Origin: Alphaproteobacteria bacterium
GTDB taxonomy: Bacteria > Pseudomonadota > Alphaproteobacteria > JAPULJ01
DNA length: 34,976 nucleotides
Direction: 5' to 3'
NCBI GenBank assembly: GCA_027295145.1
Contig: JAPULJ010000232.1
Coordinates: 1 to 34,976, forward strand
Shown one piece after another: positions 8,854 through 31,841 of this stretch. The stretch's first letter is position 1. Each line of letters starts with the position of its first letter. The position numbers were made by a program, and so were the translations under genes. The notes under the pieces are model-generated. The model was not told the DNA's origin. It made no database searches and was given only the letters and a program-made list of their open reading frames with translations.

Positions 8854-8864
8854 GAGGCAGCCCC

Positions 8865-9737: not shown

Positions 9738-9740
9738 GGA

Positions 9741-11161: not shown

Positions 11162-11248
11162 CGTTATCCCTCGGGAAGGCCGGCGACCCGCGCGCGGATC
11201 GCCGGTCAATCCAAGGCCTAGTGGATAGTATTCAAACTATCGTGCCCG

Positions 11249-12553
11249 CTAGGAGATTGCTTCCATCTTGCCTTGAAGAGGGATATTGGGGGCGGCCTTG
11301 TTGGTAACCACGACGAGATCGTACTTGTACTTGCCGCCGCGGCGCCACTGGCCACCGACGAGGGGCGTCTTGGAGACATTCTTGAAGGGGCCCTTGCCAC
11401 CCCATTTGACCGAGCCGACAACGGTATTGAGATTTGTCGCCTTGAGCGCATCCCGAACCGATGCGGACTTGCCGAGATCTTTCGTCCGCCTCAACGTGTC
11501 GGCCGCCACCTCGAACAACGCGTGGGCGAAGCCGATCGTCTGGGTCCACTGCCTGCCCGTCGATTTCTCGAAAACTGCTGCGAGTTCCGCCGCCGACTGG
11601 CCGGAAAGCGACGATTTGAACGGGTGCTTAGGCGTCCACCAAACTTCGGACGAAAGCCCGTGTCCTGCGTTGCCAAGCGCCTCAACGGCGACCGGGTACA
11701 GAATCGCCTTGCCAATGCTCGCCGCCTTGGGCCGAAAACCCTGCTGCTTAGCTTGCGTCCAGAAGGTGGTGAAATCGGGCGGAATTGGCACCCCGGTGAC
11801 TATCTCAACGCCCGCCTTCTTGAATTGGATGATCTGAGCGGTGAAGTCGTCGGTCAAGTTCTGGTAACGGCCGGGGTCGATGATCTTGTAACCCAGCTTC
11901 TTGAGCGCCGGCGGGAAACCCAGCTTGGGATGACCCCAGGCGTTGCCGTCGCCGTCGTTCGGCCAGATTGCGCCGACCACCTTGTTGGTCTTGATCGAGC
12001 TCCACATGTCGGTGAAGACGCCGATAATGTCCTCCAGACCCCAAAAGAAGTGGTAGGTCCACTCGAAGCCCGTGTCGGGCTTACCGCCGCGAGTGAAGAA
12101 CCAAGGCTGCCACGGTGCCATAGTTGAGATGCACGGCACCTCGTTCAGCTCGCACTGATCGCCCACGGGATTGGTCGTCTCCGGCGTTGAGGCGACAAGC
12201 ATCAGGTCAATCTCGTCCTTGAGGATCAACTGTGAGGCGACTTCGGCCGCCCGGTTCGGCTTCGACTGGCTGTCCTTGACCAGGATCTCGACCGGATGCT
12301 TGCGCCCGCTGATCGATAAGCCGCCCTTAAGAAACGTTTTCATTTGGCCGATGACAAACTTGTCGGCCTCAGCGAAGGCTGCGAGAGGCCCGGTGCGTGG
12401 CGTGACATATCCGATCTTGATAGTCTTGGGCGCAGCGAAGGCTGGCGCGGCAAAACCCGCGCTAAGTGCCGCCGCGCCGATCGCTGCGGCACCGCCCTTC
12501 TGCAGGAACAAACGGCGTGCGATTTTGCACTTGGTGTTTCTTGCGTCTACCAT
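11249..12553 (-). CDS. ABC transporter substrate-binding protein (LivK-like, Tat-type leader)
   Basis: Leader KIARRLFLQKGGAAAIGAAALSAGFAAPAFA, then 'KTIKIGYVTPRTGPLAAFAEADKFVIGQMK', type-I periplasmic binding fold. Confidence 0.88.
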   Translation of the reverse strand: MVDARNTKCKIARRLFLQKGGAAAIGAAALSAGFAAPAFAAPKTIKIGYVTPRTGPLAAFAEADKFVIGQMKTFLKGGLSISGRKHPVEILVKDSQSKPNRAAEVASQLILKDEIDLMLVASTPETTNPVGDQCELNEVPCISTMAPWQPWFFTRGGKPDTGFEWTYHFFWGLEDIIGVFTDMWSSIKTNKVVGAIWPNDGDGNAWGHPKLGFPPALKKLGYKIIDPGRYQNLTDDFTAQIIQFKKAGVEIVTGVPIPPDFTTFWTQAKQQGFRPKAASIGKAILYPVAVEALGNAGHGLSSEVWWTPKHPFKSSLSGQSAAELAAVFEKSTGRQWTQTIGFAHALFEVAADTLRRTKDLGKSASVRDALKATNLNTVVGSVKWGGKGPFKNVSKTPLVGGQWRRGGKYKYDLVVVTNKAAPNIPLQGKMEAIS

Positions 12554-12682: not shown

Positions 12683-13492
12683 TCACGCGTCGTCTCCATG
12701 GGCTTTGGCGGTGCGAGCGTGCAAGTCTCGTAACACCTCAAGTTCCGCCGCAGTCGGCCGTGCTGTCTCTTTTACAGTGTCGGCGAAGCGAAGCGTCCAG
12801 CCGGTCGCCGCGGCAGCGTCACCGCGTGTGACCCCGGGGTGTAGGCTTACAATTTCGAATTCGCGATCCTCTGGGTCGGGCCGCAGGATTCCAAGGTCGG
12901 TGATTATGGCCAAAGGTCCCTTGCCCTGCGCGTGCAGCCGATCTCGGCTGTCGCCACCTCGGTAGTAGCCGACCGAGGTAATGAAATCGAGTTGCTTTAC
13001 GAAGGCCCGCGGGCTCTGGCGCAGCATGACGTAGACTTCGCCGCTCGAAGTTGCGATCTCAGAGGCGCCGCCACCGCCGGGCAGGCGGACCTTTGGATGG
13101 TCGTAAGAGCCGATGACCGTGGTGTTGATATTGCCGTACCGGTCTATTTGGGCAGCGCCGAGAAATCCGACATCGATACGCCCGCCCTGCAGCCAATAGC
13201 GGAACATCTCCGGCACTGAAACGACGGCGCGAGCCTTCTCCGCGAGCATCCCGTCTCCAATGGACAGCGGCAGGACGTCGGGTTTTGTCGCTACGGTGCC
13301 CGACTCGTAAATCAAGACAACATCGGGTGCGTGGGTGAGTCGTGCCAGATTGGCGGCAGCGCTCGGCAATCCGATGCCCACGAAACACACCGGATTTCCC
13401 TGCAACATGCGCGCCGCTGCGACGGTCATCATTTCGTCGGGGGAATAGTCGAGAGATTCGGTATTTGCCGTGGCCAACGCCGTCTTAGACAT
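12683..13492 (-). CDS. catJ: 3-oxoadipate CoA-transferase beta subunit (CatJ type)
   Basis: MSKTALATANTESLDYSPDEMMTVAAARMLQGNPVCFVGIGLPSAAANLARLTHAPDVVLIYESG...FRYWLQGGRIDVGFLGAAQIDRYGNINTTVIG. Matches the recalled CatJ pattern of glutaconate-CoA-transferase-like 3-oxoadipate transferases. Confidence 0.75.
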   Translation of the reverse strand: MSKTALATANTESLDYSPDEMMTVAAARMLQGNPVCFVGIGLPSAAANLARLTHAPDVVLIYESGTVATKPDVLPLSIGDGMLAEKARAVVSVPEMFRYWLQGGRIDVGFLGAAQIDRYGNINTTVIGSYDHPKVRLPGGGGASEIATSSGEVYVMLRQSPRAFVKQLDFITSVGYYRGGDSRDRLHAQGKGPLAIITDLGILRPDPEDREFEIVSLHPGVTRGDAAAATGWTLRFADTVKETARPTAAELEVLRDLHARTAKAHGDDA

Positions 13493-14342
13493 AGTCGTCC
13501 TCCGCAAGCCGGGCCCAGGTGTCCGACCATTCCGCGACGCCGGTCACGTAGCGCTCAATCCACGATCGGAAAGTGTCGCGATCGCGCGAAATAACGTCCC
13601 AGCGTTTGTAAAAGGCGTTGTGGCGGTCGTAATAACCGTGGGCGTAGGACGGGTGGGCGCCGCGCGGCACCTCGCATACGGCGTCGATGACGAATTCCGG
13701 CAGGACGACCGAATTGAGCCCTACTCCTTCGAGATCTTCAACGATCTCCTCGACCGTTACGATGGCCCTATCGGCGGCGAGCACGACCTCCTTTTGCGCG
13801 CCAACGATGCCCGCGATTTGGACGTTTCCTTGAAGGTCAGCGCGCTGGGCGTGGATTACGGCAACGTCGGGCCGGATCGCCGGTACGCTGGCGAACTCCG
13901 CGCCGGTGAACGGACAGGTAATGCTCTTGATGTTGGGATTGTGGGCCGCGTGGTCGGTGCCGATATAACCGCGGAACACCGCGAAAGGCATGCCCGCCGC
14001 GCCGGCCTCGTAGGCGTTGGCCATGGCGGCATGACTGTGTTCTTCGATCTCCAGTGGCAGGGGCCAGTCGTTTTCCACAGCGTCGCGTAGACGATGCAGC
14101 GAGCCCACGCCTGGATTGCCACCCCAGGAGAAGATGAGCTTCTTTGCGCAACCCATGCCAATAAGCTGGTCGTAGATCAAATCGGGCGTCATGCGGATCA
14201 GCGTCAGATCCGACTTGCCCTGGCGCATAATCTCGTGGCCCGCGGCGTGCGGGATGAGATGCGTGAACCCCTCGAGCGCCACAGAGTCTCCGTCGTGGAT
14301 CATCTCGGCAACCGCCTCGCGAAGGGACATGATCTTGGCCAT
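13485..14342 (-). CDS. catI: 3-oxoadipate CoA-transferase alpha subunit (CatI type)
   Basis: MAKIMSLREAVAEMIHDGDSVALEGFTHLIPHAAGHEIMRQGKSDLTLIRMTPDLIYDQLIGMGCAKKLIFSWGGNPGVGSLHRLRDA... Overlaps the beta-subunit gene by 8 bp. Confidence 0.75.
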   Translation of the reverse strand: MAKIMSLREAVAEMIHDGDSVALEGFTHLIPHAAGHEIMRQGKSDLTLIRMTPDLIYDQLIGMGCAKKLIFSWGGNPGVGSLHRLRDAVENDWPLPLEIEEHSHAAMANAYEAGAAGMPFAVFRGYIGTDHAAHNPNIKSITCPFTGAEFASVPAIRPDVAVIHAQRADLQGNVQIAGIVGAQKEVVLAADRAIVTVEEIVEDLEGVGLNSVVLPEFVIDAVCEVPRGAHPSYAHGYYDRHNAFYKRWDVISRDRDTFRSWIERYVTGVAEWSDTWARLAEDDYV

Positions 14343-14349
14343 GCGGGGC

Positions 14350-15834
14350 CTAACGCTTGTAGTAGGGCGGTATTTGGGCGTCGACGTTGACCCAGACCGA
14401 CTTGGTTTGCGTATATTCGCGCATGGCGTCGAAGCCCATCTCGCGCCCGTAACCCGACGAACGGACGCCGCCGAAGGGTGATCCGGGATTGACCCGCTTG
14501 TAGCAGTTGATCCAGACCATGCCGCTGATCAACTGCGCGGCCACCCTATGGGCGCGCTGCAGATCGCGGGTCCACAATCCTCCGGCTAGCCCGTACTCGG
14601 TGCCGTTTGCGATCTCCATGACCTCCTCCTCATCGCGGAAAGTCGTGACCGAGACAAAGGGCCCGAAGACTTCCTCCTGGCATACCCGGTCGGACGGCTT
14701 GGCGCGTACGACGGTCGGCTCGATATAGCATCCTTTTTCCAATGCGGGATCGTCCGGGAGCTTGCCGCCGGTGAGGATCTCGCCGCCTTCTTCCTTCGCC
14801 ACCTCGCAGTACTTGAGGACACGCTCCTGATGCATCTTCGAGGTGAGTGGCCCCATCTCCGTATTCTCATCGAGGGGGTCACCCAGGCGAATACTTTTGG
14901 CCAGACCGATGAACTTGTCGAGGAACTCGTCGGCAATGGCTTCGTGCAGGATTAGGCGTGAACCGGCGATGCATGCCTGGCCCTGGTTGTGAAAGATTGC
15001 AAAGGCCGAGCCACCGACGGCGGCTGGAATGTTGGCGTCCTCGAAGATAATGTTGGCGCCTTTTCCGCCGAGCTCTAACTGAAGTTTCTTGAGGTTGCCG
15101 GCCGAGCTTTCGACGATCTTTCGCCCGACAGCCGTCGACCCCGTGAAGGCTAGTTTGTGGATGTCGGGATGGTCGGCGAGACGCTGACCCGCTATCGGGC
15201 CATAACCCGGTACGATATTGACGACACCCGGGGGGAAGCCGACCTCGCGCATCAGCTCGGCGATGCGTAAGGTGCTGAGCGGGGTCAGCTCCGCTGGCTT
15301 GAGGACGACACAGTTCCCAGCCGCCAGCGCCGGGCCCATCTTCCAGCTAGTGAACATAAGCGGAAAGTTCCACGGTACGATTTGTCCGACGACTCCGACC
15401 GGCTCGCGCAGGAGATAGTTGAGGAAGCCCTCCTCAACCGGCACCACGGAGCCTTCGAACTTGTCTGCCATGCCGCCGAAATAGCGGTAGGTGACGGCCG
15501 TCCTGGGTACGTCGAGGAAGCGGGTATCGCGCAAGGGATGACCAGTGTCTATGGATTCGAGGCGGGTCAGCTCGTCGGCGTTCGCCTCGACCGCGTCGGC
15601 GAGTTTAAGCAAGAGCCGGCCGCGGTCCATCGCCGCCATACGCCGCCAGGCGGGGAACGCTTCGGCGGCGGCGGTGACGGCCCTGTCAACATCGGCCTCA
15701 CGCGCCTCGGCGACTTCCGTAATTGGCGAGTTGTCGTGCGGATTGAGCACTTCGATAGTGCCGCCCGCATCGCCGTCGACGAACTCACCGCCAATGAACA
15801 GCTTATTCTGGAAGCTTTTAGTTTGGACGTTCAT
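14350..15834 (-). CDS. NAD(P)-dependent aldehyde dehydrogenase, candidate 4-hydroxymuconic semialdehyde dehydrogenase (HapE/PnpD role)
   Basis: ALDH motifs 'LELGGKGANIIFEDAN', 'FHNQGQACIAGSRL', 'EEVFGPFVSV'. Directly downstream of the dioxygenase subunits. Confidence 0.85.
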   Translation of the reverse strand: MNVQTKSFQNKLFIGGEFVDGDAGGTIEVLNPHDNSPITEVAEAREADVDRAVTAAAEAFPAWRRMAAMDRGRLLLKLADAVEANADELTRLESIDTGHPLRDTRFLDVPRTAVTYRYFGGMADKFEGSVVPVEEGFLNYLLREPVGVVGQIVPWNFPLMFTSWKMGPALAAGNCVVLKPAELTPLSTLRIAELMREVGFPPGVVNIVPGYGPIAGQRLADHPDIHKLAFTGSTAVGRKIVESSAGNLKKLQLELGGKGANIIFEDANIPAAVGGSAFAIFHNQGQACIAGSRLILHEAIADEFLDKFIGLAKSIRLGDPLDENTEMGPLTSKMHQERVLKYCEVAKEEGGEILTGGKLPDDPALEKGCYIEPTVVRAKPSDRVCQEEVFGPFVSVTTFRDEEEVMEIANGTEYGLAGGLWTRDLQRAHRVAAQLISGMVWINCYKRVNPGSPFGGVRSSGYGREMGFDAMREYTQTKSVWVNVDAQIPPYYKR

Positions 15835-15899: not shown

Positions 15900-16895
15900 C
15901 TAAAAATCGACCGGGTAGGACTTGAGCTTACCGCTGCGGTGCATTTCGACAATGCCCGGATTGGTGTTCTCCCAAACCAGCAGCATGGAACGCTTCTGCG
16001 AAAATCCCTGGTGGCGGATGTCCTCAGGCATCGACGCCACGTCGCCCGCTTTCATGATGACTTTGGCGCGTGGCCTGCCAGTCTCGAAGTCCTCGACTTC
16101 CCACTTGATCTCGTCGGAGAGTTGCACGAACCACTCGACCCTATCGTTGCCGTGCTTGACAGGCAGGATGTACTCCTCCGTCGTCATGCAATAGAGACTG
16201 GTTTTGCATACCGAGGTGATCGACGGGTTCCATGTTACGTCCGACCGCGCCAGGTAGGCGAAAAGATTGGTCGCGCCGATCTCGCTCTCGTAGCCAGGCT
16301 CGACATGGACTTCCGGCTGATCTTGGCTGACATCCTCAAATGCGCGATTGACGGGATAGCCGTTTTCGTCGGTGCGCAGAACGGTGTCGCCCGGCAAACC
16401 GACCATGCGCTTGCACACTTGGCGCTCGCGGTTGATGGCATCCCTATTGTGGCCGTTCTTTTTGCCGAGCCAAGCGGTCCCGGTCTCCTCAGGTGCGGCG
16501 AATGGATCGAAGCCGTCGTTGGTCCAGTCGTCGAGGATTTCCTTGAACGTCGCCAGGATGATCGGCGTCTCGAAGCTCTCCTTCAGGTCAATACCGGCAT
16601 CCTTATATGCCTCGTTGTATGAGCCCGCAAACATCTCGACAGTGCCGTAGAGGTTGTTGGTCCCGAATACGGCGTCGAAATTGATTTGGTTGTAGAAAAA
16701 CTGCCAAGCGACATCACGCATCATCGCGCGGAGAAAGATGTCGGCGGACATGTAGTGTGTCATCGATCCGTTCGCCGATGGCCACTCAATATAGACGAAG
16801 TACTCGTCCCGGCTGAACTTGAAGCTGCCTAGCTCGAACGAACGGTACCCGGTGCGGTTGCTGGCGTTGGATGCTATGACGGCGATCTCGCTCAT
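15900..16895 (-). CDS. hapD: Hydroquinone 1,2-dioxygenase large (beta) subunit, HapD/PnpD-type (often labelled hydroxyquinol 1,2-dioxygenase in databases)
   Basis: ATG at 16895 with GGGAGAGG SD. 'MRDVAWQFFYNQINFDAVFGTNNLYGTVEMFAG...ILPVKHGNDRVEWFVQLSDEI...GDVASMPEDIRHQGFSQKRSMLLVWEN'. Ligand pattern H-x-N-x3-E ... H(+47). Confidence 0.8.
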   Translation of the reverse strand: MSEIAVIASNASNRTGYRSFELGSFKFSRDEYFVYIEWPSANGSMTHYMSADIFLRAMMRDVAWQFFYNQINFDAVFGTNNLYGTVEMFAGSYNEAYKDAGIDLKESFETPIILATFKEILDDWTNDGFDPFAAPEETGTAWLGKKNGHNRDAINRERQVCKRMVGLPGDTVLRTDENGYPVNRAFEDVSQDQPEVHVEPGYESEIGATNLFAYLARSDVTWNPSITSVCKTSLYCMTTEEYILPVKHGNDRVEWFVQLSDEIKWEVEDFETGRPRAKVIMKAGDVASMPEDIRHQGFSQKRSMLLVWENTNPGIVEMHRSGKLKSYPVDF

Positions 16896-16969
16896 CGATC
16901 CTCTCCCGAATTCAAGAGTATGGTCATGTGTTTCGTGAAGCCCGTTTGCGTGGGGGCGCGCTACTTTGG

Positions 16970-17467
16970 TCAGGTCAGGCAGATATCCGCCCATTTCTCC
17001 ACCGTGAACGGACCCTGTATCGTCTGCTGGAGAATAACGCCCAGTTTTCGTGCTCGATACTGATAAACCGAACCTTTGGGCAGTATTGCTTGGTGGCCAC
17101 GTTTGAGCACGACCCAGCCCATTTTCGGCCCACTCGGATCGCCCTCGATCTTGCGAGTTCCTTCGTCCTCTTCGGCGACCACCTCCTCGCCTTCGGCCTT
17201 GTGGAAATGGACCTCGATCTCGCCATCCATGGCCAGAGCGAACTCGTCGTGGGAGCAGGTGAACCAGTCCGACTCGCCCTCGGCCCGCAAAACCTCGATA
17301 ACGTTCTCTAAATTCCGTGCCACGGCTACCTTCTCGTAGGGCGCAGAATTTCCCGCGACCTCGAAGACGTTCGAGAACGTATAGTGCTGGGGTCTGTCGT
17401 TGATGATCTCGATATGGCCCTTCTCGTAATCATCGAGCGAGCCGAATACGGTAACGTAGTCCGACAT
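16970..17467 (-). CDS. hapC: Hydroquinone 1,2-dioxygenase small (alpha) subunit, HapC-type
   Basis: 165 aa. MSDYVTVFGSLDDYEKGHIEIINDRPQHYTFSNVFEVAGNSAPYEKVAVARNLENVIEVLRAEGESDWFTCSHDEFALAMDGEIEVHF... Size and adjacency match the 18 kDa/38 kDa two-subunit enzyme. Confidence 0.8.
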   Translation of the reverse strand: MSDYVTVFGSLDDYEKGHIEIINDRPQHYTFSNVFEVAGNSAPYEKVAVARNLENVIEVLRAEGESDWFTCSHDEFALAMDGEIEVHFHKAEGEEVVAEEDEGTRKIEGDPSGPKMGWVVLKRGHQAILPKGSVYQYRARKLGVILQQTIQGPFTVEKWADICLT

Positions 17468-17514: not shown

Positions 17515-17543
17515 TTGATTTTGTTCGTATAGCGAACTATAGT
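17515..17543 (+). promoter_or_regulatory. Putative sigma70 promoter of iclR gene: TTGATT-N17-TATAGT
   Basis: -35 at 17515-17520, -10 at 17538-17543; the spacer contains the GTTCG-N5-CGAAC operator. Confidence 0.5.
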
Positions 17544-17556
17544 ACGTTGTACGAAC
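17523..17556. promoter_or_regulatory. Tandem IclR-family operators: GTTCGTATAGCGAAC (17523-17537) and GTACGTTGTACGAAC (17542-17556)
   Basis: Two 15-bp GTTCG-N5-CGAAC-type palindromes (second has one mismatch) with centres 19 bp apart, in the divergent hapC/iclR intergenic region. Confidence 0.7.
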
Positions 17557-17578
17557 ATACTATGAGGTGGCAAAAACG

Positions 17579-18367
17579 ATGTCAACCGACAAAAACGAGC
17601 GTGAGTTTGTGCAGTCCCTGGCCCGCGGCCTCGCCGTGATCCGTTCTTTCGACGAAGACCATGCCGCCATGTCTCTAAGCGAGGTAGCCAATCGGACGGA
17701 CATGACCCGGGCAACAGCACGACGGTTGCTGCATACCTTAGTTGCGCTCGGCTACGCCGATCTCAATGGCAAGCTTTTTACCCTCAAGCCCACGGTGCTC
17801 GACCTCGGCTACGCCTACCTGTCCTCACTCAATCTGTGGCAGATCGCCCATCCAATCATGCAGGAAGTCGTGGAGAAGGTCCACGAATCCTGCTCGGCCT
17901 CAGTGCTCGAGGGACAAGACGTCATATACGTCGCGCGCGTGCCGACGCGGCGCATCTTGTCGATCGGGCTAAGTGTCGGCAGTCATCTTCCGGCGCATGC
18001 AACCTCCATGGGTCGCGTGCTTCTCTCTAGCCTGCCGGACGATGAATTGGAGGAGTTCCTGCGATCCGCAACCTTGAATCGATACACGGAGCGAACTGTG
18101 ACAGACCCTGCACGACTGAGGCGCATCATCGACAAGATCGCCAAAATCGGATGGGCTCTCGTCGACCAGGAATTCGAATTGGGCCTCCGATCGATCGCGG
18201 TGCCCGTCTGGGGGCTCAGCAGCCGACTGATAGCGGCTTTAAACATCAGCACCCACGCGGCACGAATGTCTACCGATCAAATGGTCGAACAACTGTTGCC
18301 TGTTCTACGAGACGCCTCTCGGCAAATCTCGGCGGCCATGGGGGTGAGGCAAAGCAAGCAGGCATAG
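17579..18367 (+). CDS. IclR-family transcriptional regulator (PcaR/PcaU/PobR-like)
   Basis: ATG at 17579 with GAGGTGG SD. 'EFVQSLARGLAVIRSFDEDHAAMSLSEVANRTDMTRATARRLLHTLVALGYADLNGKLFTLKPTVLDLGYAYLSSLNLWQIAHP...VPTRRILSIGLSVGSHLPAHATSMGRVLL'. Confidence 0.9.
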   Translation: MSTDKNEREFVQSLARGLAVIRSFDEDHAAMSLSEVANRTDMTRATARRLLHTLVALGYADLNGKLFTLKPTVLDLGYAYLSSLNLWQIAHPIMQEVVEKVHESCSASVLEGQDVIYVARVPTRRILSIGLSVGSHLPAHATSMGRVLLSSLPDDELEEFLRSATLNRYTERTVTDPARLRRIIDKIAKIGWALVDQEFELGLRSIAVPVWGLSSRLIAALNISTHAARMSTDQMVEQLLPVLRDASRQISAAMGVRQSKQA

Positions 18368-18592
18368 AAGGCATCGACATCTCTATGGTTCCTAGCGCGC
18401 AGGCGTCCCGGAGTGGGGCGTCGACCGGTGATGCAATGTCTTCGAGATCCGCGACTGGAAAATCCGGCTGGTATTCATCTGTTTCGAGCCTGTTCTAAGC
18501 CGGCAAGGATATGGCTCCTTAAAACTGCGCAGGTGGCCTATCGAAAAAATTGCCTGTATCATCGTCGGCGCGACCTCAATGCGACGGCCTCG

Positions 18593-19450
18593 ATGCCTGC
18601 GATGGACATTCCCGCCCATGAGACCGGCGCGTGCCGGTCGGGAAATGTTACACTGCGCTACCGAAAGTTCGGTGCGCCGGGCCGCACGCCCGTGTTGATC
18701 GTCCACGGCCTTTCGTATTTCTCTTACGACTGGATAGGGGTCGGCGATGCGTTGGCCGACGGCCGCGAAGTTGTGGCCCAGGATATGCGCGGGTTCGGCG
18801 ATTCGGACTGGAGCCCAGACGCCGATTACTCGCTCGACACATTCGCCGACGATATTGGTGAGCTCTGCGATCATTTCGGCTGGGCGAATGTGGTACTGGT
18901 GGGTCATTCTATGGGCGGGCGCAACGTGACTTATTTCGCAAGCCGGCGTCCAGATAGAGTCGCCGCCCTGGTGCTGGTCGACTATTCTCCGGTAAACGCG
19001 CCCGAGGGCTCCGAGCGGGTCACAAGGACCGTCGCAGGGGTGCCGAACACCTTCACTTCGGTTGACGAAGCGATTCGATATTTCGGCAAGGATGCCTCGG
19101 ATGACCGCATCCGGGCTCGCATGGAGGCTTATCTCCGCCCGGTCGAGGGCGGCTTCGCGATCAAGCGGGACACCGTGTTTCGCGACCGGTTCCGCAAGGT
19201 GTTGGAGACAGGGGAGCGCCCCAAGCTGCCGGTCGACATGTGGGATGAACTGGCGGCCGTAGCCGCGCCGATCCTAGTTCTGCGCGGCCGGCGTTCGGAC
19301 ATGTTCGCACAAGCGACGGCCTCTCGGGTCAAGTCGTGCAATCCGCGGCTCGGCCTGGTCGAGCTCGACACCGGCCACGATGTCGCGGGCGAAGACCCGG
19401 GCGGCCTGGTCCGCGAGATAACCAATTTCCTTCATCGGGAGGACCGCTGA
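18593..19450 (+). CDS. Alpha/beta hydrolase
   Basis: ATG at 18593 or 18602. 'PVLIVHGLSYFSYDWIG', nucleophile elbow 'LVGHSMGGRNV', late 'DTGHDVAGEDP'. ORF track opens at 18413, but the conserved region begins at about 18600. Confidence 0.85.
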   Translation: MPAMDIPAHETGACRSGNVTLRYRKFGAPGRTPVLIVHGLSYFSYDWIGVGDALADGREVVAQDMRGFGDSDWSPDADYSLDTFADDIGELCDHFGWANVVLVGHSMGGRNVTYFASRRPDRVAALVLVDYSPVNAPEGSERVTRTVAGVPNTFTSVDEAIRYFGKDASDDRIRARMEAYLRPVEGGFAIKRDTVFRDRFRKVLETGERPKLPVDMWDELAAVAAPILVLRGRRSDMFAQATASRVKSCNPRLGLVELDTGHDVAGEDPGGLVREITNFLHREDR

Positions 19451-20052
19451 TGGCTGTGAAAACGGCAAAGGGTTCGACGCTAGATACGCCGATCACGCGC
19501 GGAATTGATCACTTGGCCTTCGCCACGGACGACATGCCGGTGACCATGGAGTTCTATACACGCGTACTGAAGATGCAGCTCGTACATGTGCGCCGGGTGC
19601 CTTACGAGCGTGATCGGGGCCAGCCGCCTTTCGACAACTTGCGCCACTACTTCTTCAGCATGGGAAACGACTCACTGCTCGCCTTCTTCGAATTCCCCAA
19701 GGGGCTCGAACGCCAGAACCGCGATCTCCCCGGTGGTATGCAGCACGTCGCGTTTCACGTCGCCAACGACCGGTTCGAGGCCATGATCGAACACATCAGG
19801 TCGTGCGATGTGGATGTAATCGGCCCGCTCTCGCTGGGGGGGCGCTTCTGGTCCGCCTACCTGTTCGACCCCAACGGCATCCGCCTTGAGCTCACGACCA
19901 TCCGTGAGGCGGGCGAGCCGTCCGCCGTCAGCTCGGTACTGCAGACCGAGGCGGAAGCGCGCGCCGAATTGGAGACGCTGTTCAACGACCCGGACGAGGT
20001 TGCACGCTGGCTCGCCGCCATGCCCCTGATCGAACCCCCGGACAATACTTAA
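19450..20052 (+). CDS. VOC family protein (glyoxalase/extradiol dioxygenase-like)
   Basis: ATG overlaps the hydrolase TGA (TGATG). 'ITRGIDHLAFATDDMPVTMEFYTRVLKM', 'MQHVAFHVANDRF', 'YLFDPNGIRLELTT'. Confidence 0.85.
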   Translation: MAVKTAKGSTLDTPITRGIDHLAFATDDMPVTMEFYTRVLKMQLVHVRRVPYERDRGQPPFDNLRHYFFSMGNDSLLAFFEFPKGLERQNRDLPGGMQHVAFHVANDRFEAMIEHIRSCDVDVIGPLSLGGRFWSAYLFDPNGIRLELTTIREAGEPSAVSSVLQTEAEARAELETLFNDPDEVARWLAAMPLIEPPDNT

Positions 20053-21044
20053 CCACTTCGGGCCTTCGGCCACGGCCGAAGAAGTGTAGCGCCGTTGCCT
20101 TTCAGTATCGCTGTGATATCCGTCGCCGGCAAGCCGGAGGACCGCAGCGCTTCCAGCGTGCGGCCGGTTTCGAATATCGGGCAATCGGTACCGAGAAGAA
20201 CGCGTTCGCGGCCGAATACCTCGGCAGCGAGGGCAATGGCGCGCGGCCCGAAGCTCGCCGTATCAACATAGAGCCGACCGAAGCGGGAAGAAGGAAGCGG
20301 AGCCTCCGGCGTCCGCACTGAACTCACATGATCCATCCGTTCGACCAGGAATGGTATGGCGCCGCCCAGGTTGGCGACCTGGACGGTAAGGCGTGGGTAA
20401 GTCTCCAGGAAATTTGTCATGGCGAGCGTGACCACGACCGAGCTCAGTCGGGCCTGCACGTCGAGCACGATGTGGCGCATATTGTCGTTGTCGCGCTCCA
20501 CTGTGCCAACGCCCGCGCCCGGCATCGGCCCAGGGTGGATGAAGATGTGCGCGGCCATCGCGTCAGCCGTCTCCAGGATCGGCGCCAATGCCTGCGTATG
20601 CGCCAACGTCTGGAAGCCATCGACCGGCAAGATCACGCCTACAAAACCCGGCCGCGCCAGCACGCGCTGAAGTTCGGAGACCGCGGCTGTCGCATCGGCG
20701 AGCGGTATGGTGGCGAAACCGGCAAATCGCCCCGGTTGTCCCGCAATTGTCTCGGCCAGCGCGTCGTTGAATGCGCGCACCAGGGGGGCGGCCTCATCAA
20801 CCGGCAGGCTGTCGATCCCGAAGAGGCCGGGTAGGGACAGGACCTGAGTTTCGACGCCATGCCGGTCCATGAAGGCGAGGCGGCGGTCGATCTCGGTAAG
20901 ATCGAGCCCGACCGGCAAGCTCTCCCGATAAACTTCAAGCCGCTCGCCCTTGGGTCCGGCGACGATCCGCGGTGCGGTCACACGGGCGCGCAGGGCCTCA
21001 GCAAGCGTGGGCGGCAGCCAATGACAGTGCCAGTCGATGCTCAT
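20049..21044 (-). CDS. Amidohydrolase-2 family protein (ACMSD/gamma-resorcylate decarboxylase-like)
   Basis: MSIDWHCHWLPPTLAEAL (HxH metal motif), 'HIFIHPGPMPG', 'VLLGTDCPIFE' (late Asp), 331 aa. Confidence 0.85.
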   Translation of the reverse strand: MSIDWHCHWLPPTLAEALRARVTAPRIVAGPKGERLEVYRESLPVGLDLTEIDRRLAFMDRHGVETQVLSLPGLFGIDSLPVDEAAPLVRAFNDALAETIAGQPGRFAGFATIPLADATAAVSELQRVLARPGFVGVILPVDGFQTLAHTQALAPILETADAMAAHIFIHPGPMPGAGVGTVERDNDNMRHIVLDVQARLSSVVVTLAMTNFLETYPRLTVQVANLGGAIPFLVERMDHVSSVRTPEAPLPSSRFGRLYVDTASFGPRAIALAAEVFGRERVLLGTDCPIFETGRTLEALRSSGLPATDITAILKGNGATLLRPWPKARSG

Positions 21045-21230
21045 TTATTCGCCCCGTGAGGGTATGTGCACGGCGATGCAGCTCGGCGCCTGCCGGAAGA
21101 GAGAGCGTTCGCAGTCGGCGCGGCGTTTGCCGGCCACTGGTTGGTGTGATTTCGTCGGTCATCGCCGAAGCCGCAACCTTTGTAGGTTTACCTTCCAGGA
21201 GGTCGAACAGCCAAGTGGTCTTTTCGAACC

Positions 21231-21260
21231 TTGACGCTGCATACCTCTTTCAACTAAGAT
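21231..21260 (+). promoter_or_regulatory. Putative sigma70 promoter of TRAP operon: TTGACG-N18-TAAGAT
   Basis: -35 at 21231-21236, -10 at 21255-21260, directly upstream of the operators. Confidence 0.5.
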
Positions 21261-21294
21261 GTTCGCATCACGCACTTATGTTCGTTATACGAAC
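21261..21294. promoter_or_regulatory. Tandem IclR-family operators: GTTCGCATCACGCAC (21261-21275) and GTTCGTTATACGAAC (21280-21294)
   Basis: Same 15-bp architecture and same 19-bp centre-to-centre spacing as the hapC/iclR intergenic sites. The perfect palindrome extends to TGTTCGT-TAT-ACGAACA (21279-21295). Confidence 0.7.
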
Positions 21295-21351
21295 AATCGG
21301 AGACTCTTAAATCTTAGAATATCCCGAAGCGTATGAAGGGAGGAGGAACCA

Positions 21352-22455
21352 ATGACGCAACATGGCAGCAATAAACCAAGGGCCGGTGGTGTTGGTCGCC
21401 ATCGATTTCTTTCCGCAGCCGGCGCGATTACATTGGTCGCCAGCGCTGCGGCACTAGCGCTGGTGCCAACGCCGGCGATGGCCAAAACATACGAGCTAAA
21501 AATCGCTCATTTCGTAACGCCCAAGCATTCCTATTCCAAATGGATCGAGAAATGGGCAAAGGAGCTGGAGGCCAAGTCAAAGGGCGAGCTCAAGTTCAAG
21601 ATCTTTCCCGGCGCCCAGCTCGGGCCGCCGCCGAAGTACTACGACATGGTGCGGCGCGGCCAGGTCGACATCACTTGGATCGTGCACGGCTTCACGGCCG
21701 GGCTCTTTCCGCTAACCGAGCTGTCGAACCTTCCCTATTTGGTTGGGAGTGCGGAGATCGGCATTAAAGTACTGAACGACAAGATGCTGAGATCGAAGTA
21801 CCTCGATCGCGAGCATAAGCGTGTGAAGGTGCTGATGCTGTTCACGCACCAGCCGGGCAACATCAACACCGCCAAGCGGCCAGTGCGCACAATCGCCGAC
21901 ATCAAGGGCCTGCGACTGCGCTTTGCTTCGCCAACGATCAGGGATTTCATCGCCGCCCTCGGCGGAACGCCAGTCGGCTTGCCGCCAACGCGGATTTCGG
22001 AGGACATGCAGAAAGGTACTCTCGACGGCGCCTTCATCGATTACGGCGGTGCGGGCATCGCATTCAAGATGGGGCCGGTGACCAAGTACACAACGGAGAT
22101 GTACTCCTACGTGGCCAGCTTCTGCCTGTGCATGAACCAGCGCAGCTTTAACCGGCTGCCGGCTAGTCTTCGCGCCTTGATCGACAAGTCCTTGATCGGT
22201 CGCGAGAAGGAGGTAGGCCACGCCTGGGACAAGCTCGACCCAATCGGCAAGAAAATCATGATGAAGGCCGGCATGACGCCGATCAAGCTTACGCCCGCAG
22301 AGGACAAGAAGTTCCGGGCGATCGGCGCCAAGGTGGCCGAGGCCAAGATTGCCGAGCTGGAGAAGCGGGGCCTGCCGGCGCGCGCCGTTTACAAAATGAT
22401 GAAGGCGCTGGCGGCTAAGCACGCAGCGACTTCGCGGAACTTCTGGGCCAAGTAG
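21352..22455 (+). CDS. dctP: TRAP transporter substrate-binding protein (DctP family)
   Basis: Signal peptide then 'YELKIAHFVTPKHSYSKWIEKWAKELEAKSKGELKFKIFPGAQLGPPPKYYDMVRRGQVDITW'. GGGAGGAGG SD. Confidence 0.9.
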   Translation: MTQHGSNKPRAGGVGRHRFLSAAGAITLVASAAALALVPTPAMAKTYELKIAHFVTPKHSYSKWIEKWAKELEAKSKGELKFKIFPGAQLGPPPKYYDMVRRGQVDITWIVHGFTAGLFPLTELSNLPYLVGSAEIGIKVLNDKMLRSKYLDREHKRVKVLMLFTHQPGNINTAKRPVRTIADIKGLRLRFASPTIRDFIAALGGTPVGLPPTRISEDMQKGTLDGAFIDYGGAGIAFKMGPVTKYTTEMYSYVASFCLCMNQRSFNRLPASLRALIDKSLIGREKEVGHAWDKLDPIGKKIMMKAGMTPIKLTPAEDKKFRAIGAKVAEAKIAELEKRGLPARAVYKMMKALAAKHAATSRNFWAK

Positions 22456-22459
22456 GGCG

Positions 22460-22975
22460 TTGAACGACATGGCGCGCTTAAGGGTGGTGGCATTGCCGTT
22501 TGGTTATGCCGCCGCCCTGGTCCTGGCTTTTATGATGCTGTTCACGGCCACCGCCGTAGTCATGCGCGAGATATTCGATGCGCCGATCCTCGGAGTCATC
22601 GACGTCATGGAGTTGGCGCTGATATTCTGCATCTTCGTCGCCTTGCCGGGCGTGTTTCTGCGTGACGAAAACGTGGTGGTCGACATAATCGACCAAGCGG
22701 TGCCCCCGCGGGTGTGCGCTGCGCTGCGTCTGATCGGTCTGGTACTGACGCTTGGATTCCTCGTGTTGATGATGATCGAGATGATCGAGCCGGCGCTCGA
22801 CAAACTGAACGATCGTGAAGTCACCATGACCTTAAGCATCAACCGTTTCGTCCATTGGGTCCCGATCATCTTCGGCTTCGCCTTGTCGATCGTCGCGACC
22901 TTATGTGTGCTCGCGCATTATCTGCGCCACGGCGTGCCGACGGCACGCCAGAGCGCGGAAAAAACTTCCGAATGA
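22460..22975 (+). CDS. dctQ: TRAP transporter small permease (DctQ)
   Basis: 171 aa, four hydrophobic segments: 'AVVMREIFDAPILGVIDVMELALIFCIFVALPGVFLRDENVVVDII'. TTG start, or ATG at 22469. Confidence 0.85.
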   Translation: MNDMARLRVVALPFGYAAALVLAFMMLFTATAVVMREIFDAPILGVIDVMELALIFCIFVALPGVFLRDENVVVDIIDQAVPPRVCAALRLIGLVLTLGFLVLMMIEMIEPALDKLNDREVTMTLSINRFVHWVPIIFGFALSIVATLCVLAHYLRHGVPTARQSAEKTSE

Positions 22976-23012
22976 TCTGCGGCGAGCGTGCATCTGAAGG
23001 TTGCCCGGACCG

Positions 23013-24314
23013 ATGAGCGACGGGCTGATAGGCATTGCCGCTCTGTTCGGGCTGTTCGGTCTTATTATCCTGCGCGTGCCTGTGGCGATTGCGCTGGGCC
23101 TGGTCGGCTTGTTGGGGTACGCCGCGATCGATGGTTGGGAGCGAGCCCTTATCGCAGCCGGCTCGACTCCATACGATCTTACCGACAAATATTCGCTAAC
23201 CGTTGTTCCGCTGTTCGTGCTGATGGGCGCAGTTGCCTCGCGCTCCGGCATGTCGGCCGAGCTTTACCGGGCCGCAAACGCAATGTTCAGCGGCCTGCGC
23301 GGGGCCCTGGCCATGGCCACCGTCGGCGCTTGCGCGGGTTTTGGTGCGATTTGCGGCTCTTCGCTGGCGACCGCGGCGACCATGACCCGCGTTGCGGTGC
23401 CCGAGATGAGGCGTTGGGGTTATGACGAGCGCATCGCCACGGGGGTGGTCGCGTCGGGTGGGACGCTTGGCGTTCTGATCCCTCCTTCGGTGGTGCTCGT
23501 ATTCTATGCGATCATATCCGAGCAGGGCGTCCCGCAGCTCTTCGCGGCTGCCCTCATACCCGGCTTGATCGGTGCGGTCCTTCATATCGTGGTCATCGCG
23601 GCTATCGCCATTCTGCAACCCGAGCGCATGCCGAAGAGCGCCGTCATGAGCGCGCTGGAGCGCTTACGTGCGCTGGTCGGGCTGTGGAAGATGTTGATCC
23701 TCTTCGGGATCGCGGTAGGCGGCATCTATTCCGGCTATATCAGCCCGACCGAAGCCGCGGCGATCGCCGCTCTGGTCGCCATCATTATCGCGTTCGCAAC
23801 GCGCACCTTGACCGTAAAGCAATTGATGGAAGCATTCCTGGAGACAATCTGGACCACCGGCATGCTGTTCTTCATCATCATCGGCGCGTTCTTTTTCGCC
23901 TACTTTATGGCGTTGACGCAGCTGCCGAACTCGCTCAGCGAATGGGTCCAGGGCCTGCAGGTCGGCCCTTGGGTGGTGATCCTGATGATGATCGTTTTCT
24001 ATATTGTACTAGGCTGTTTTCTCGATGCCATCAGCATGATATTGATCACCGTGCCGGTCTTCCTGCCGCTCGCCTTGAGCATCGGCTTTGATCCGATCTG
24101 GTTTGGCATCCTTGTGCTCGTGGTGGTGGAGGTCGGCATGATCACGCCGCCGGTGGGCCTGAATATATTCGTGATTCGAGCGCAGATGCCAGATATTGCG
24201 CTGAGCGATGTCTATTGGGGCATCGTGCCGTTCCTGGCCGCGGCGGGCGGCCTGATCGCGCTGTTGATGCTGTTCCCTCGGCTCGCGTTGTGGCTGCCGG
24301 AGCTTCTGTACTGA
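23013..24314 (+). CDS. dctM: TRAP transporter large permease (DctM)
   Basis: ATG at 23013. 'GACAGFGAICGSSLATAATMTRVAVPEMRRWGYDERIATGVVASGGTLGVLIPPSVVLVFYAII' is the classical DctM signature. Confidence 0.92.
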   Translation: MSDGLIGIAALFGLFGLIILRVPVAIALGLVGLLGYAAIDGWERALIAAGSTPYDLTDKYSLTVVPLFVLMGAVASRSGMSAELYRAANAMFSGLRGALAMATVGACAGFGAICGSSLATAATMTRVAVPEMRRWGYDERIATGVVASGGTLGVLIPPSVVLVFYAIISEQGVPQLFAAALIPGLIGAVLHIVVIAAIAILQPERMPKSAVMSALERLRALVGLWKMLILFGIAVGGIYSGYISPTEAAAIAALVAIIIAFATRTLTVKQLMEAFLETIWTTGMLFFIIIGAFFFAYFMALTQLPNSLSEWVQGLQVGPWVVILMMIVFYIVLGCFLDAISMILITVPVFLPLALSIGFDPIWFGILVLVVVEVGMITPPVGLNIFVIRAQMPDIALSDVYWGIVPFLAAAGGLIALLMLFPRLALWLPELLY

Positions 24315-27525: not shown

Positions 27526-28014
27526 CTATTTGTCATTGTTGGCCACTTCCAGAATCGCCTGAACGATGCCGTGATAGCCGGTGCAACGGCACAAATGGCC
27601 CGATAGCATTTCGCGAACTTGCCTCTCGGAAGGCCGTGGCGTCTCCTTAAGAAAGCAGGTCGCCGAAATCAAAATACCGGCGGTGCAGAAACCGCATTGA
27701 AGCGCGCCGTGGCGTGAGAACGCCTCCTGAAGAGGAGATAACGTTCCGCCAGGGGCGAGCCCTTCGATCGTTTTTATATCGGCGCCATCGGCCTGCACGG
27801 CGAAGGTCATGCAAGCCCGGGTTGGCCGATCATCCATGAGCACCGTGCAGGCGCCGCAAATGCCGTGCTCACAGCCGACATGGGTGCCGTAGAGGTTGAG
27901 TTGGTGGCGCAGGAAATCGCAAAGCAGAGTGCGGCCCTCGGCCTCGCCCGTGCGGACTTTGCCATTAACGGTAACGCGAACATGCGCCTTCTCGCCCGAT
28001 TTAAGACGCAGCAT
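27526..28014 (-). CDS. hmfC: Molybdenum hydroxylase 2Fe-2S small subunit (CoxS-like); candidate furoyl-CoA dehydrogenase small subunit
   Basis: 'YGTHVGCEHGICGACTVLMDDRPTRACMTFAVQADG' and 'HGALQCGFCTAGILISATCFLKETPRPSERQVREMLSGHLCRCTGY': both [2Fe-2S] motifs. Confidence 0.65.
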   Translation of the reverse strand: MLRLKSGEKAHVRVTVNGKVRTGEAEGRTLLCDFLRHQLNLYGTHVGCEHGICGACTVLMDDRPTRACMTFAVQADGADIKTIEGLAPGGTLSPLQEAFSRHGALQCGFCTAGILISATCFLKETPRPSERQVREMLSGHLCRCTGYHGIVQAILEVANNDK

Positions 28015-28017
28015 ACC

Positions 28018-28878
28018 TTAGCCTCCAACCCCCAACGCCGCGGTGATGACTTTGGCGCCCAACACGCGAACGAGCTGGCGCCGGTAGTCGGCATTGGCCT
28101 GCAAGTCTTCCACGGGATCGACTGCCGCCGATGCGCGCTCTGCGGCGTCGCGTGCCGTCTTAGCGGTTGCAGGTGCCCCAATATATGCGCCGCAATCGGC
28201 GAGCACCGGCCGGTCCTCGACGCCGCCAAATGCTAAGGCAAGCTCGACGATATTACCATTCGCGTCGACGCGCGCGCGGGACGCCGCAGCGGTAATGGCA
28301 AAATCACCATGTCGCTGGGCGATTTCATCGAAGGCGTAGCCGTCGCTTGTTTCGTGCCTTGGCCAAACAAGTGCCGTCACCATTTCGTCAGGCGCCCGCG
28401 CCGTCGTCAGAAGGCCTTGAAAAAAGTCCGCCGAGGAAATCCGGCGCTTCTTTTTTCGCGAGCGGAGCAACACCTCACCGTCCAGAACGAGAAGGCTCAA
28501 CGGGATCTCGGCGCTCGGGTCGGCGTGGGCCACGGAACCTCCCACGGTTCCCCGGCTGCGCGTCTGATAATGCCCGACATGAGGCAATGCCAGAGCGAGC
28601 AGAGGCAGCGCCTCCATCGCAATTTTCGATGCCATGAAGTCAGCCTGGCGGACCAACGCTCCGGTGCGCACGGATGTGTCGCCGATTTCAATGGCCGCGA
28701 GATCCGGCAGCCGGTTGACGTCGATTATGGCGGTCGGCCGAACCAAGCGCATGTTGAGCATGGCGGCCAGCGAAAGTCCGCCGGCCAGAATACAGGCGTC
28801 TTCGCCAAACTCCGCCAAGAGTGCAAGCGCTTCGTCCAGCGTTTTGGGTTGACAGTATTCGAAGGCGACTGGCTTCAC
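28018..28878 (-). CDS. hmfB: Molybdenum hydroxylase FAD-binding medium subunit (CoxM-like); candidate furoyl-CoA dehydrogenase medium subunit
   Basis: 'FEYCQPKTLDEALALLAEFGEDACILAGGLSLAAMLNMRLVRPTAIIDVNRL', 'GHYQTRSRGTVGGSVAHADPSAEIPLSLL'. Confidence 0.65.
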   Translation of the reverse strand: MKPVAFEYCQPKTLDEALALLAEFGEDACILAGGLSLAAMLNMRLVRPTAIIDVNRLPDLAAIEIGDTSVRTGALVRQADFMASKIAMEALPLLALALPHVGHYQTRSRGTVGGSVAHADPSAEIPLSLLVLDGEVLLRSRKKKRRISSADFFQGLLTTARAPDEMVTALVWPRHETSDGYAFDEIAQRHGDFAITAAASRARVDANGNIVELALAFGGVEDRPVLADCGAYIGAPATAKTARDAAERASAAVDPVEDLQANADYRRQLVRVLGAKVITAALGVGG

Positions 28879-31841
28879 GCGTCATCCTTACGCGTGAGCT
28901 TGGCCCATAACCCTTTACGCGCCGGCACCGGCTGCAGGCGCTTGTCGAGCCCCTTGAAGAAGCCGGCGATCAACAGCCGCGCCACCGTGCCAAGCATGCG
29001 CTGACCAACCGCGGCGACCTTGCCGCCAACATCCGCAACGTAGCTGTAGTCAAGTTGGGTTCCCCCTTCCGGCGATCGGGTGAGTGTAACTTGTCCCTCG
29101 CCCGCGCCCCAGCCTAGGGCGCCTTCGGCTTTGCCAACAAGGCGGAGGCTCTCGGGTTCATTTTGATCCCGCAGCTCTATGCGGGCCTTATATACGCTGC
29201 GTATCCCGCCGACGCCGATACGGACGTCGGCGGCGTAGCTGTCTGGCGCAAGCATTTCGAGGCTCTCGCACCCCGGGATGAGTGCGGCCAGCTCTTCGGG
29301 ATCAAGTAGTAGACGCCAGACTGTCTCTGGTGGCGACTCAAGCTCGACGCTGCCAGAGCCGGTCATTGAGTGACGGGCCTTTTTTCCCGGCCCTGGCCGC
29401 ACGCCGGTTCCAGTTTCAGCTTCGGCCACTCGTTTGTACGTGCGGCCGTTAGCTAGATCCCACATTTTGTTGAAAGTGAGCGGCAATTCGATGTCGTCGC
29501 GTCCAAGGGCGTCGGCAACCGCATTGGCGATCACAGTGGGCGTCAGCATGGAGGAGCCATCGCCCATGCCCTTGGAACCGAAGGGGTTCTGCGGCGATGG
29601 CGTGCAGGTCTGGCCGACAGTGATTGGCGGCATTTCAGTTGCAGTCGGGCACAGATAGTCCGCGAAAGTGCCCGATTGAAAGCTGCCTGCGGGATCGTAG
29701 ACCAGCTCCTCGAGCAAAGCTGCACCAAGTCCGTGGGCGAATCCTCCGTGAATCTGGCCCTCGACGATGATCGGGTTGAGGACTGTGCCGATGTCGTGGA
29801 CAGTCACGTACTTTATGACCTTGATTCGCCCGGTCTCTGGATGAATCTCGATCGCTGCTATGTCGCAAATGAATCCGAATGTCACTGAAGATGCGACCCT
29901 ATCTTCTTGGTCGGGCGTATTAAGGACTGTCGGCGAGACGACGGCCGTCTCGTAGATCCCAGGGGTCACGTCTTCTGGAAGGCCGGCGGGATGCCAGTGG
30001 GTGCTGGCGGCAAGACGGCGGACTGAAAGGCCCTTCTCCGGCACACCGACGATTCGCGCTTCGCCGTCGACCAACTCAATATCTTCAGGCGATACTTCAA
30101 GCGCCTCGCCGGCAATCTTTTTGATTTTCTCGGCGACACGACCCACGGCCTGCGAGATCGCCCCAACGACGATCGACGAAAAGCGGTTGGAGTAGTTGCC
30201 CGAGGCCAGAGACCACGCGCTGGTCAGCGTATCTATATCCGTTACGACGTGAACATCGTCGGGGTGGAGCCCTAGAGCATCGGCGACGATCTGCGCCGCG
30301 ACGGTCGCATGACCCTGACCGGCCGGTGTCGAGACGGTACGAACCGTAACCGCACCGGACGGATCAATCGACACGGTGGCGCTGGAGAGGGCCCCGGATC
30401 GGCCCCCTGCTTTCGCGCGTTCTTCCGGTGTCTGTGCAAGCGTGACATAGGCCATATTGGAGCCTGACGGCTCGACGCCGGCCGCCAAACCAATACCGAA
30501 CAACCGCCCTTCGGCGCGGGCAGCGGTGCGTTGCGCTTTAAGTGCATCGTAGTCGGCAAGGCGTAGCGCCTCATCCAAAGCCGCCTCGTAGTCACCAGCG
30601 TCATAGAGCGCGCCAGCCGGCGCCAGATATGGGAAGGCGTCCGCCGGAATGAAATTGCGTCGGCGGATTTCGGCAACATCCATCCCCAACTTCCGAGCGC
30701 CCGCTTCAATAATTCGCTCAAGTGCATAATAATACTGCGGCCCGCCATAACCTCGGTTGAGGCCGACCGGGGTCCGGTTTGTGACCACGAGCTGATTGTC
30801 GATTGCGATATTGCGAACCCGATAGGACCCATTTGACGACGCGTGCATGCGGTAGACCGAGGCTGGCTCCGGCGCGCGCACATAGGCGCCAACGTCGACG
30901 ATGTTGCGAAAACGCAGTCCGGTCAACTCGCCGGTCTTAGTGAAGGCAGCATCCACCTCGTCGGCCCGATCCGCGGCTGCGGACGATGCGACGAGGTGTT
31001 CCAGCCGATCCTCAATCCATTTTAGAGGAGCGCCGATGAGCCGGCTCGCCGCCGCCAGCAGCACGATATAGGGATACATCGCTTGTTTGATTCCGAAGCT
31101 GCCGCCGCTGTTGGGTGCGGTGATCAGGCGGAGCCGGTTGCCCGGTATTTTGAGCGCGCCGCACATCAAAGCGTGCAAAATGAATGGGCCCTGGAAGTTG
31201 GACCAAACAGTGTAGCGCTCAGGCGCTTCCTCGAAATGGGCGATAATCCCGTAAGTCTCGATTGGCGTTGAGGATTGGCGCGGATAGCGCCATTTCAGCG
31301 ACACTACGTGATCGGCTTTGGCGAATGCCGTATCTGGATCGCCGTAGCGAAATGTCCGGTGGTGCACTCGGTTCGAACCGACTTCATCGTGCAACAGCGG
31401 CGCGTTCTCGGCGAGAGCGTCAAGAGGATCGACCACCGCCGGCAACGGCTCGTAGTCTACTGCAATGGCGTCGAGCGCATCCTCGGCTAGATAGCGGTCG
31501 CTCGCCGCAACCAATGCGACCGGCTCGCCGACATATCGTACTTTGTCGACCGCGATTGGGTGGTAGGTGATAGGCACACGTAGAGCGCTCGGGATCGGGT
31601 CGATCACATCGACGATCTGCCTGCCCGTCAAGACGCCGGCAACACCATCCATTGCTTCGGCGGCAGCGGTGTTGATCCCGGTGATCCTTGCGTGGGCGTG
31701 AGGTGAGCGCAGTATGGCGACATGCCGAAGCCCTGCGACCGGCTCCAAGTCGTCGATGAACCGCGCTTGCCCTGTAAGGAGCGCAGGGTCCTCCTTGCGC
31801 GGCAAACGCGCGCCGATCCAGCTTCCTCTGGCCTCCCCCAT
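28875..31841 (-). CDS. hmfA: Molybdopterin-binding large subunit (CoxL-like) with C-terminal CoxG/SRPBCC domain; candidate furoyl-CoA dehydrogenase large subunit
   Basis: 988 aa. 'GARLPRKEDPALLTGQARFIDDL', 'TAPNSGGSFGIKQAMYPYIVLLA', 'NPFGSKGMGDGS', then a C-terminal 'MTGSGSVELESPPETVWRLLLDPEELAALIPGCESLEM...' CoxG-like domain. 4-bp overlap with the medium-subunit gene. Confidence 0.65.
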   Translation of the reverse strand: MGEARGSWIGARLPRKEDPALLTGQARFIDDLEPVAGLRHVAILRSPHAHARITGINTAAAEAMDGVAGVLTGRQIVDVIDPIPSALRVPITYHPIAVDKVRYVGEPVALVAASDRYLAEDALDAIAVDYEPLPAVVDPLDALAENAPLLHDEVGSNRVHHRTFRYGDPDTAFAKADHVVSLKWRYPRQSSTPIETYGIIAHFEEAPERYTVWSNFQGPFILHALMCGALKIPGNRLRLITAPNSGGSFGIKQAMYPYIVLLAAASRLIGAPLKWIEDRLEHLVASSAAADRADEVDAAFTKTGELTGLRFRNIVDVGAYVRAPEPASVYRMHASSNGSYRVRNIAIDNQLVVTNRTPVGLNRGYGGPQYYYALERIIEAGARKLGMDVAEIRRRNFIPADAFPYLAPAGALYDAGDYEAALDEALRLADYDALKAQRTAARAEGRLFGIGLAAGVEPSGSNMAYVTLAQTPEERAKAGGRSGALSSATVSIDPSGAVTVRTVSTPAGQGHATVAAQIVADALGLHPDDVHVVTDIDTLTSAWSLASGNYSNRFSSIVVGAISQAVGRVAEKIKKIAGEALEVSPEDIELVDGEARIVGVPEKGLSVRRLAASTHWHPAGLPEDVTPGIYETAVVSPTVLNTPDQEDRVASSVTFGFICDIAAIEIHPETGRIKVIKYVTVHDIGTVLNPIIVEGQIHGGFAHGLGAALLEELVYDPAGSFQSGTFADYLCPTATEMPPITVGQTCTPSPQNPFGSKGMGDGSSMLTPTVIANAVADALGRDDIELPLTFNKMWDLANGRTYKRVAEAETGTGVRPGPGKKARHSMTGSGSVELESPPETVWRLLLDPEELAALIPGCESLEMLAPDSYAADVRIGVGGIRSVYKARIELRDQNEPESLRLVGKAEGALGWGAGEGQVTLTRSPEGGTQLDYSYVADVGGKVAAVGQRMLGTVARLLIAGFFKGLDKRLQPVPARKGLWAKLTRKDDA

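Follow-up and report, generated by a model that had tools for sequence, protein, structure and literature searches.

PcaR of Pseudomonas putida (box GTTCGATAATCGCAC), a member of the TIGR02431 subfamily, controls the protocatechuate/3-oxoadipate genes of the pca regulon; it represses from boxes that overlap the -10 region or lie past it, and the ligand releases the repression (PMC12455658). The subfamily also has activators and dual regulators, as described in PMC8222616 and PMC12455658. A response to 3-oxoadipate, protocatechuate or 4-hydroxybenzoate is characteristic of the subfamily. PcaU and PobR of Acinetobacter baylyi, known activators from the same IclR subfamily, use GTTCG/CGAAC-type half-sites with an additional repeat, in the form of one palindrome and an external half-site. 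In the survey by Suvorova and Gelfand (2021, PMC8222616), many IclR regulators have tandem sites with a spacing of 18-22 bp, interpreted as binding of a tetramer to one face of the DNA, and GTNCG-N5-6-CGNAC is the consensus of PcaR, PcaU, PobR and others. Among the genes in such regulons are those for DctPQM, Liv-type transporters and CoA-transferases; the main text makes no mention of hydroquinone. Two further systems are among the nearest known: the LysR-type regulators PnpR and PnpM act on pnpCDEFG in Pseudomonas sp. WBC-3, with activation by p-nitrophenol (PMC5603801), and PheR of Sphingobium sp. SHPJ-2, which has the core motif GCAACG, is an IclR-family repressor linking aromatic uptake and catabolism (PMC13273656).

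Here, we analyzed a stretch of 34,976 nucleotides from an alphaproteobacterial assembly (contig JAPULJ010000232.1), referred to as the window. Its IclR regulator shares with PcaR the subfamily, the type of box, the five ligand-contact residues and the position of the box at or after the -10 region, but it is found with a hydroquinone 1,2-dioxygenase, a TRAP transporter and a strict 19-bp tandem. In contrast to the PcaU and PobR sites, the window has two full palindromes just past the -10 region. Spacing, consensus and the tetramer reading agree with the tandem sites of the IclR survey, as does the presence of DctPQM, Liv-type transporter and CoA-transferase genes near the regulator. The likeness to PnpR/PnpM is confined to the ring-cleavage enzyme family (hydroquinone dioxygenase and semialdehyde dehydrogenase), and PheR differs in operator and substrate. 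Tandem IclR operators with 18-22-bp spacing are already known, and the window offers a well-made instance of this established kind of control. Somewhat new, it seems, is that sequence comparison assigns IclR regulators of the PcaR type to the hydroquinone dioxygenase clusters of two phyla and thereby provides these clusters with a likely IclR-type regulator. A literature search of the main text of openly accessible papers returned none stating such control and only regulators of the LysR type.

Results and Discussion

The hydroquinone cluster and the adjoining PcaR-type regulator

The features of the window are compiled in Table 1. Both dioxygenase subunits are homologous to the solved HapCD/PnpCD enzymes. 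Genes 68-78% identical to the aldehyde dehydrogenase come after hapD in relatives, and the two CoA-transferase subunits are 64-68% identical to genes adjoining pcaR in locus L017. Taken together, the cluster reads as a route from hydroquinone via 4-hydroxymuconic semialdehyde, maleylacetate and 3-oxoadipate to the CoA ester of the latter (PMC3727088 and general knowledge). On the 3' side of iclR, an alpha/beta hydrolase gene, a VOC gene, an inverted amidohydrolase gene and dctPQM follow. Elsewhere in the window, the large subunit of a molybdenum hydroxylase (28875-31841) is fused to a C-terminal CoxG-like domain; adjacent genes at 27526-28878 encode the FAD and 2Fe-2S subunits that match it.

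Table 1 Coordinates of promoters, operator sites and genes in the window.
Feature	Position	Strand	Remarks
dctPQM -35, TTGACG	21231-21236	+	promoter pattern search
dctPQM -10, TAAGAT	21255-21260	+	abuts operator directly; spacer N18
hapC promoter, TTGACA-N17-TAGTAT	17557-17585	-	-10 abuts operator; -35 overlaps iclR start codon
iclR promoter, TTGATT-N17-TATAGT	17515-17543	+	one operator site within spacer
TRAP operator site 1, GTTCGCATCACGCAC	21261-21275 (centre 21268)		degenerate, proximal
TRAP operator site 2, GTTCGTTATACGAAC	21280-21294 (centre 21287)		perfect, distal
iclR/hapC operator site, GTTCGTATAGCGAAC	17523-17537 (centre 17530)		perfect, distal for hapC
iclR/hapC operator site, GTACGTTGTACGAAC	17542-17556 (centre 17549)		degenerate, proximal for hapC
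Branched-chain-type ABC transporter	7786-12553	-	adjoins hydroquinone dioxygenase in relatives also (conserved)
Two CoA-transferase subunits, probable 3-oxoadipate CoA-transferase	12683-14342	-	PF01144
Aldehyde dehydrogenase, probable 4-hydroxymuconic semialdehyde dehydrogenase	14350-15834	-	PF00171
Hydroquinone 1,2-dioxygenase large subunit, HapD/PnpD type	15900-16994	-	PF18191; PDB 4zxa/5m21, 2e-135
Hydroquinone 1,2-dioxygenase small subunit, HapC/PnpC type	16970-17467	-	PDB 4zxa/5m21 small subunit, 3e-56
IclR-family regulator, PcaR/PcaU/PobR subfamily	17579-18367	+	TIGR02431, 336.3 bits, cut-off 284.75
Alpha/beta hydrolase and VOC-family gene	18590-20052	+	accompany TRAP genes in relatives
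dctP, TRAP solute-binding protein	21352-22455	+	PF03480, 5e-43
dctQ, TRAP small permease	22460-22975	+	PF04290
dctM, TRAP large permease	23001-24314	+	PF06808; TIGR00786 above cut-off

The IclR regulator named in a first-pass annotation of the window belongs to the PcaR type: its match to TIGR02431 spans the full model (1-248 of 248), and it is the sole protein of the assembly above the cut-off. The five succinate-contacting residues of PcaR (Y, T, S, N and S; PMC12455658) are all conserved, as Y117, T142, S205, N222 and S224. Most relatives retain four or five of them, so that their conservation points to a dicarboxylate-type ligand but does not identify which one. The regulator gene is preceded by its own operator, with GTNCG-N5-6-CGNAC at 17523-17556, 23 bp ahead of the iclR start and between iclR and the divergent hydroquinone 1,2-dioxygenase operon.

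Two promoters with the same operator layout

A second pair of the same palindrome type, GTTCG-N5-CGNAC, lies 3.7 kb away at the dctPQM promoter. The two sites are 19 bp apart from centre to centre in both pairs, a value that recurs in 11 related loci and falls within the 18-22-bp IclR tandem spacing. The first-pass annotation had located both pairs correctly to the base, including their phasing, and its description of one perfect and one degenerate site per pair holds for both. With respect to the direction of transcription (hapC, dctP), it is the degenerate site that adjoins the -10 region at either promoter.

The annotated promoter directly upstream of the TRAP pair, TTGACG-N18-TAAGAT, is present and is the sole sigma-70-like match within 21040-21360, and both sites lie downstream of its -10 region. 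The distance from the -10 region to the start codon is 90 nt at the hapC and 92 nt at the TRAP promoter, and the combination TANNNT-GTTCGN5CGNAC occurs in the assembly only at these two promoters (control, 0). In all 13 promoters compared, TTGAC[AG] is found 21-25 nt ahead of the operator (29 nt in L078), and in the hapC direction of the 11 related loci a -10 region is located at or just ahead of the first base of the operator. A recent origin of the TRAP promoter by copying of the hapC promoter was considered and rejected, as the spacers agree at only 8 of 23 positions, which is near chance; the dissimilarity of the two promoters outside the motif does not indicate a recent duplication.

In the draft assembly (5.42 Mb, 93% complete, 7% contaminated), the pattern GTNCGN5CGNAC-N4-GTNCGN5CGNAC is present at two places, 17523-17556 and 21261-21294, compared to none for the reversed pattern and a chance expectation of about 0.004. 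No match to a slightly stricter form of the pattern was obtained in 384 further genomes of the class. The genome-wide scan proposed in the first-pass annotation thus puts the pair well away from background frequency and bears out the view that the coincidence is unlikely by chance. Single perfect palindromes are not enriched in the assembly (6 versus 9 in the control), so the evidence consists in the pair and its place and not in one palindrome.

The operator in related loci

Hydroquinone dioxygenase was detected in eight of the 384 other genomes sampled. Four of these, all from one genus, have an IclR gene on the same contig (50-51% identical) and a 19-bp tandem operator 19-34 bp ahead of hapC; these operators are one base off the strict pair pattern and were recovered only via the dioxygenase search. 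The other four alphaproteobacterial loci show neither the operator nor a detectable linked IclR gene (the contig of one, G026, ends about 1.6 kb past hapD). Scanning a wider collection of genome contigs with the tandem pattern yielded at least 119 loci, where a rough estimate from composition predicts about 10 chance matches collection-wide. Among the matches listed, a related IclR gene lies within 3 kb of 70 of the 119, and iclR, operator and hapCD occur together in at least seven further loci, six from Actinomycetota and one alphaproteobacterial. An IclR protein scan of the same collection found no relative. This comparative footprinting marks the pair at 17523 as a conserved operator of the PcaR-type regulator. 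A single clade of IclR proteins from hydroquinone loci was considered and rejected, since their tree requires four or more label changes.

A weight matrix was trained on 11 related operators (the four alphaproteobacterial ones and those of the seven further loci), excluding the window. It scored 37.5 for the hydroquinone pair and 37.3 for the TRAP pair, compared to a maximum of 23.8 over 62 million simulated positions. The TRAP pair and the autoregulatory pair therefore match the operators of relatives equally well.

A probable, apparently lineage-specific link to the TRAP transporter

The dctPQM promoter carries an operator that matches the motif of the regulator. Given the matrix score and the shared geometry, it copies the layout of the hydroquinone promoter, and dctPQM and the hydroquinone operon very probably share a regulon. 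The co-control of dctPQM by IclR put forward in the first-pass annotation is to this extent supported by motif, score and geometry; conservation, on the other hand, does not extend to it. The operator is absent at the orthologous TRAP operons of four relatives (G184, G356, G278 and G064), which do carry the hydroquinone operator. Their DctP orthologues are 67-71% identical and are encoded on contigs other than that of the hydroquinone locus, in at least three of the four directly behind a VOC gene. Likewise, a similar TRAP gene was found within 3 kb of none of the 119 tandem matches, among the matches listed. The link between regulator and transporter thus looks lineage-specific. Judged by the arrangement in relatives, hydrolase, VOC and TRAP genes thus constitute a separate module, which in the lineage of the window adjoins the hydroquinone cluster and has the operator. 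If the transporter is tied to hydroquinone catabolism, it would be predicted to import an aromatic compound or a dicarboxylate product of one.

Control of the divergent amidohydrolase from the same operator, raised as a possibility in the first-pass annotation, found no support: the search of 21040-21360 shows no visible minus-strand promoter near the operator, and the amidohydrolase start is about 215 bp off. In relatives (L174-L176), genes for an alpha/beta hydrolase and a PaaK-like CoA ligase are located near the VOC and dctPQM genes, which in L175 diverge from them; together they make up a conserved putative uptake/activation module.

Proposed mechanism and alternative explanations

We consider it likely that the TRAP promoter bears a genuine tandem operator of the regulator at 17579-18367 and that repression at hapC and dctPQM is lifted by a product of the pathway, resulting in joint induction. 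Without inducer, two regulator dimers, forming a tetramer, would occupy the palindromes 19 bp apart on one face of the DNA and cover the transcription start just past the -10 region of the hapC-direction and dctPQM promoters, so that transcription would be blocked. The iclR/hapC pair also overlaps the iclR promoter and would mediate autorepression. The inducer is most likely 3-oxoadipate or a similar dicarboxylate; by analogy with PcaR, repression and derepression by such a product is our best inference. As the same twin site is found at the hydroquinone and transporter promoters, ring cleavage and TRAP uptake would probably be switched on together.

An activating or dual role of the regulator at dctPQM, as known for PcaR and PcaU, has precedent in the activators and dual regulators of the subfamily (PMC8222616; PMC12455658), but we regard it as unlikely: the two sites follow a decent -35/-10 promoter, a location from which PcaR-type boxes repress (PMC12455658), and the -35 element is near consensus at all hapC promoters. 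The pair might also be an IclR-type operator read by a different paralogue of the same organism. Two further proteins reach TIGR02431 scores short of the cut-off (C166, 199 bits; C612, 113 bits), non-identical IclR proteins use the same tandem motif across phyla, and paralogues may be missing from an incomplete draft, as may further targets. The recognition-helix regions of the two proteins, SRSSTFR and PKSAAHR, nevertheless differ strongly from TRATARR in the window regulator, no related operator occurs in the 14.8 kb and 8.0 kb around their genes, and the fit of the TRAP pair to the hydroquinone matrix equals that of the autoregulatory pair, which makes this explanation improbable.

A mere chance match would agree with the background frequency of single palindromes and with the operator-free orthologous TRAP genes. 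It is nonetheless hardly credible, since both pairs found, against the small number expected, fall in one regulatory neighbourhood, the matrix score is far over the simulation, and the -10 region abuts the operator exactly as at hapC. Binding by the window regulator, with repression at both promoters, is the reading that we retain. The shared geometry amounts to a precise promoter grammar, suitable for searches of other genomes. More tentatively, and with chances that we would put slightly short of even, PcaR-type IclR repressors with a fixed grammar (TTGAC[AG], 21-25 nt, and a 19-bp tandem operator abutting the -10 region) might govern hydroquinone 1,2-dioxygenase across Alphaproteobacteria and Actinomycetota, the TRAP module, operator-free elsewhere, having been recruited here by building the same grammar anew, probably after arriving beside the hydroquinone cluster.

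Further targets and other tandem operators

The first-pass annotation had predicted further targets of the regulon, an expectation that the assembly does not support: it contains no other strong pair, and no operator is found in the 261 bases that the contig provides ahead of the likely maleylacetate reductase gene (C212:262-1311), which is 49% identical to the gene that follows aldh in L032. A perfect single site at C563:128-142 was rejected as a third target, having neither a partner site nor a gene start nearby. With three mismatches allowed, one extra place was retrieved, C253:1890-1923 (L015), and the control also gave one match. This weaker, 19-bp-spaced pair has a matrix score of 23.8 (about 0.09 expected per genome) and is located directly behind TTGGAC-N18-TAGGTT and 49 bp ahead of a putative tricarboxylate-type solute-binding protein gene, identified by eye and lacking a Pfam match. 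It is a weaker candidate for a third target.

Part of the 119 tandem matches listed from the wider collection are not operators, namely inverted repeats of the form GTTCGTAGTGCGGAC...GTCCGCACTACGAAC, mostly cyanobacterial (L055, L071, L073, L075, L090, L092, L117, L120, L121, L138 and L154). Such mimicry of the tandem pattern calls for caution in scans based on pattern only. In L017 (8214-8247), a pcaR locus adjoining pcaIJ-type genes, the box GTTCGCTATACGAAC is combined with a half-site CGAAC in the 19-bp register, corresponding to a palindrome with an external repeat. In Bradyrhizobium and relatives (L046, L076, L085, L095, L107, L116 and others), a family of tandem operators adjoins an IclR gene together with genes of a branched-chain-type ABC transporter (LivK 61-65% identical), and the arrangement constitutes another conserved uptake regulon.
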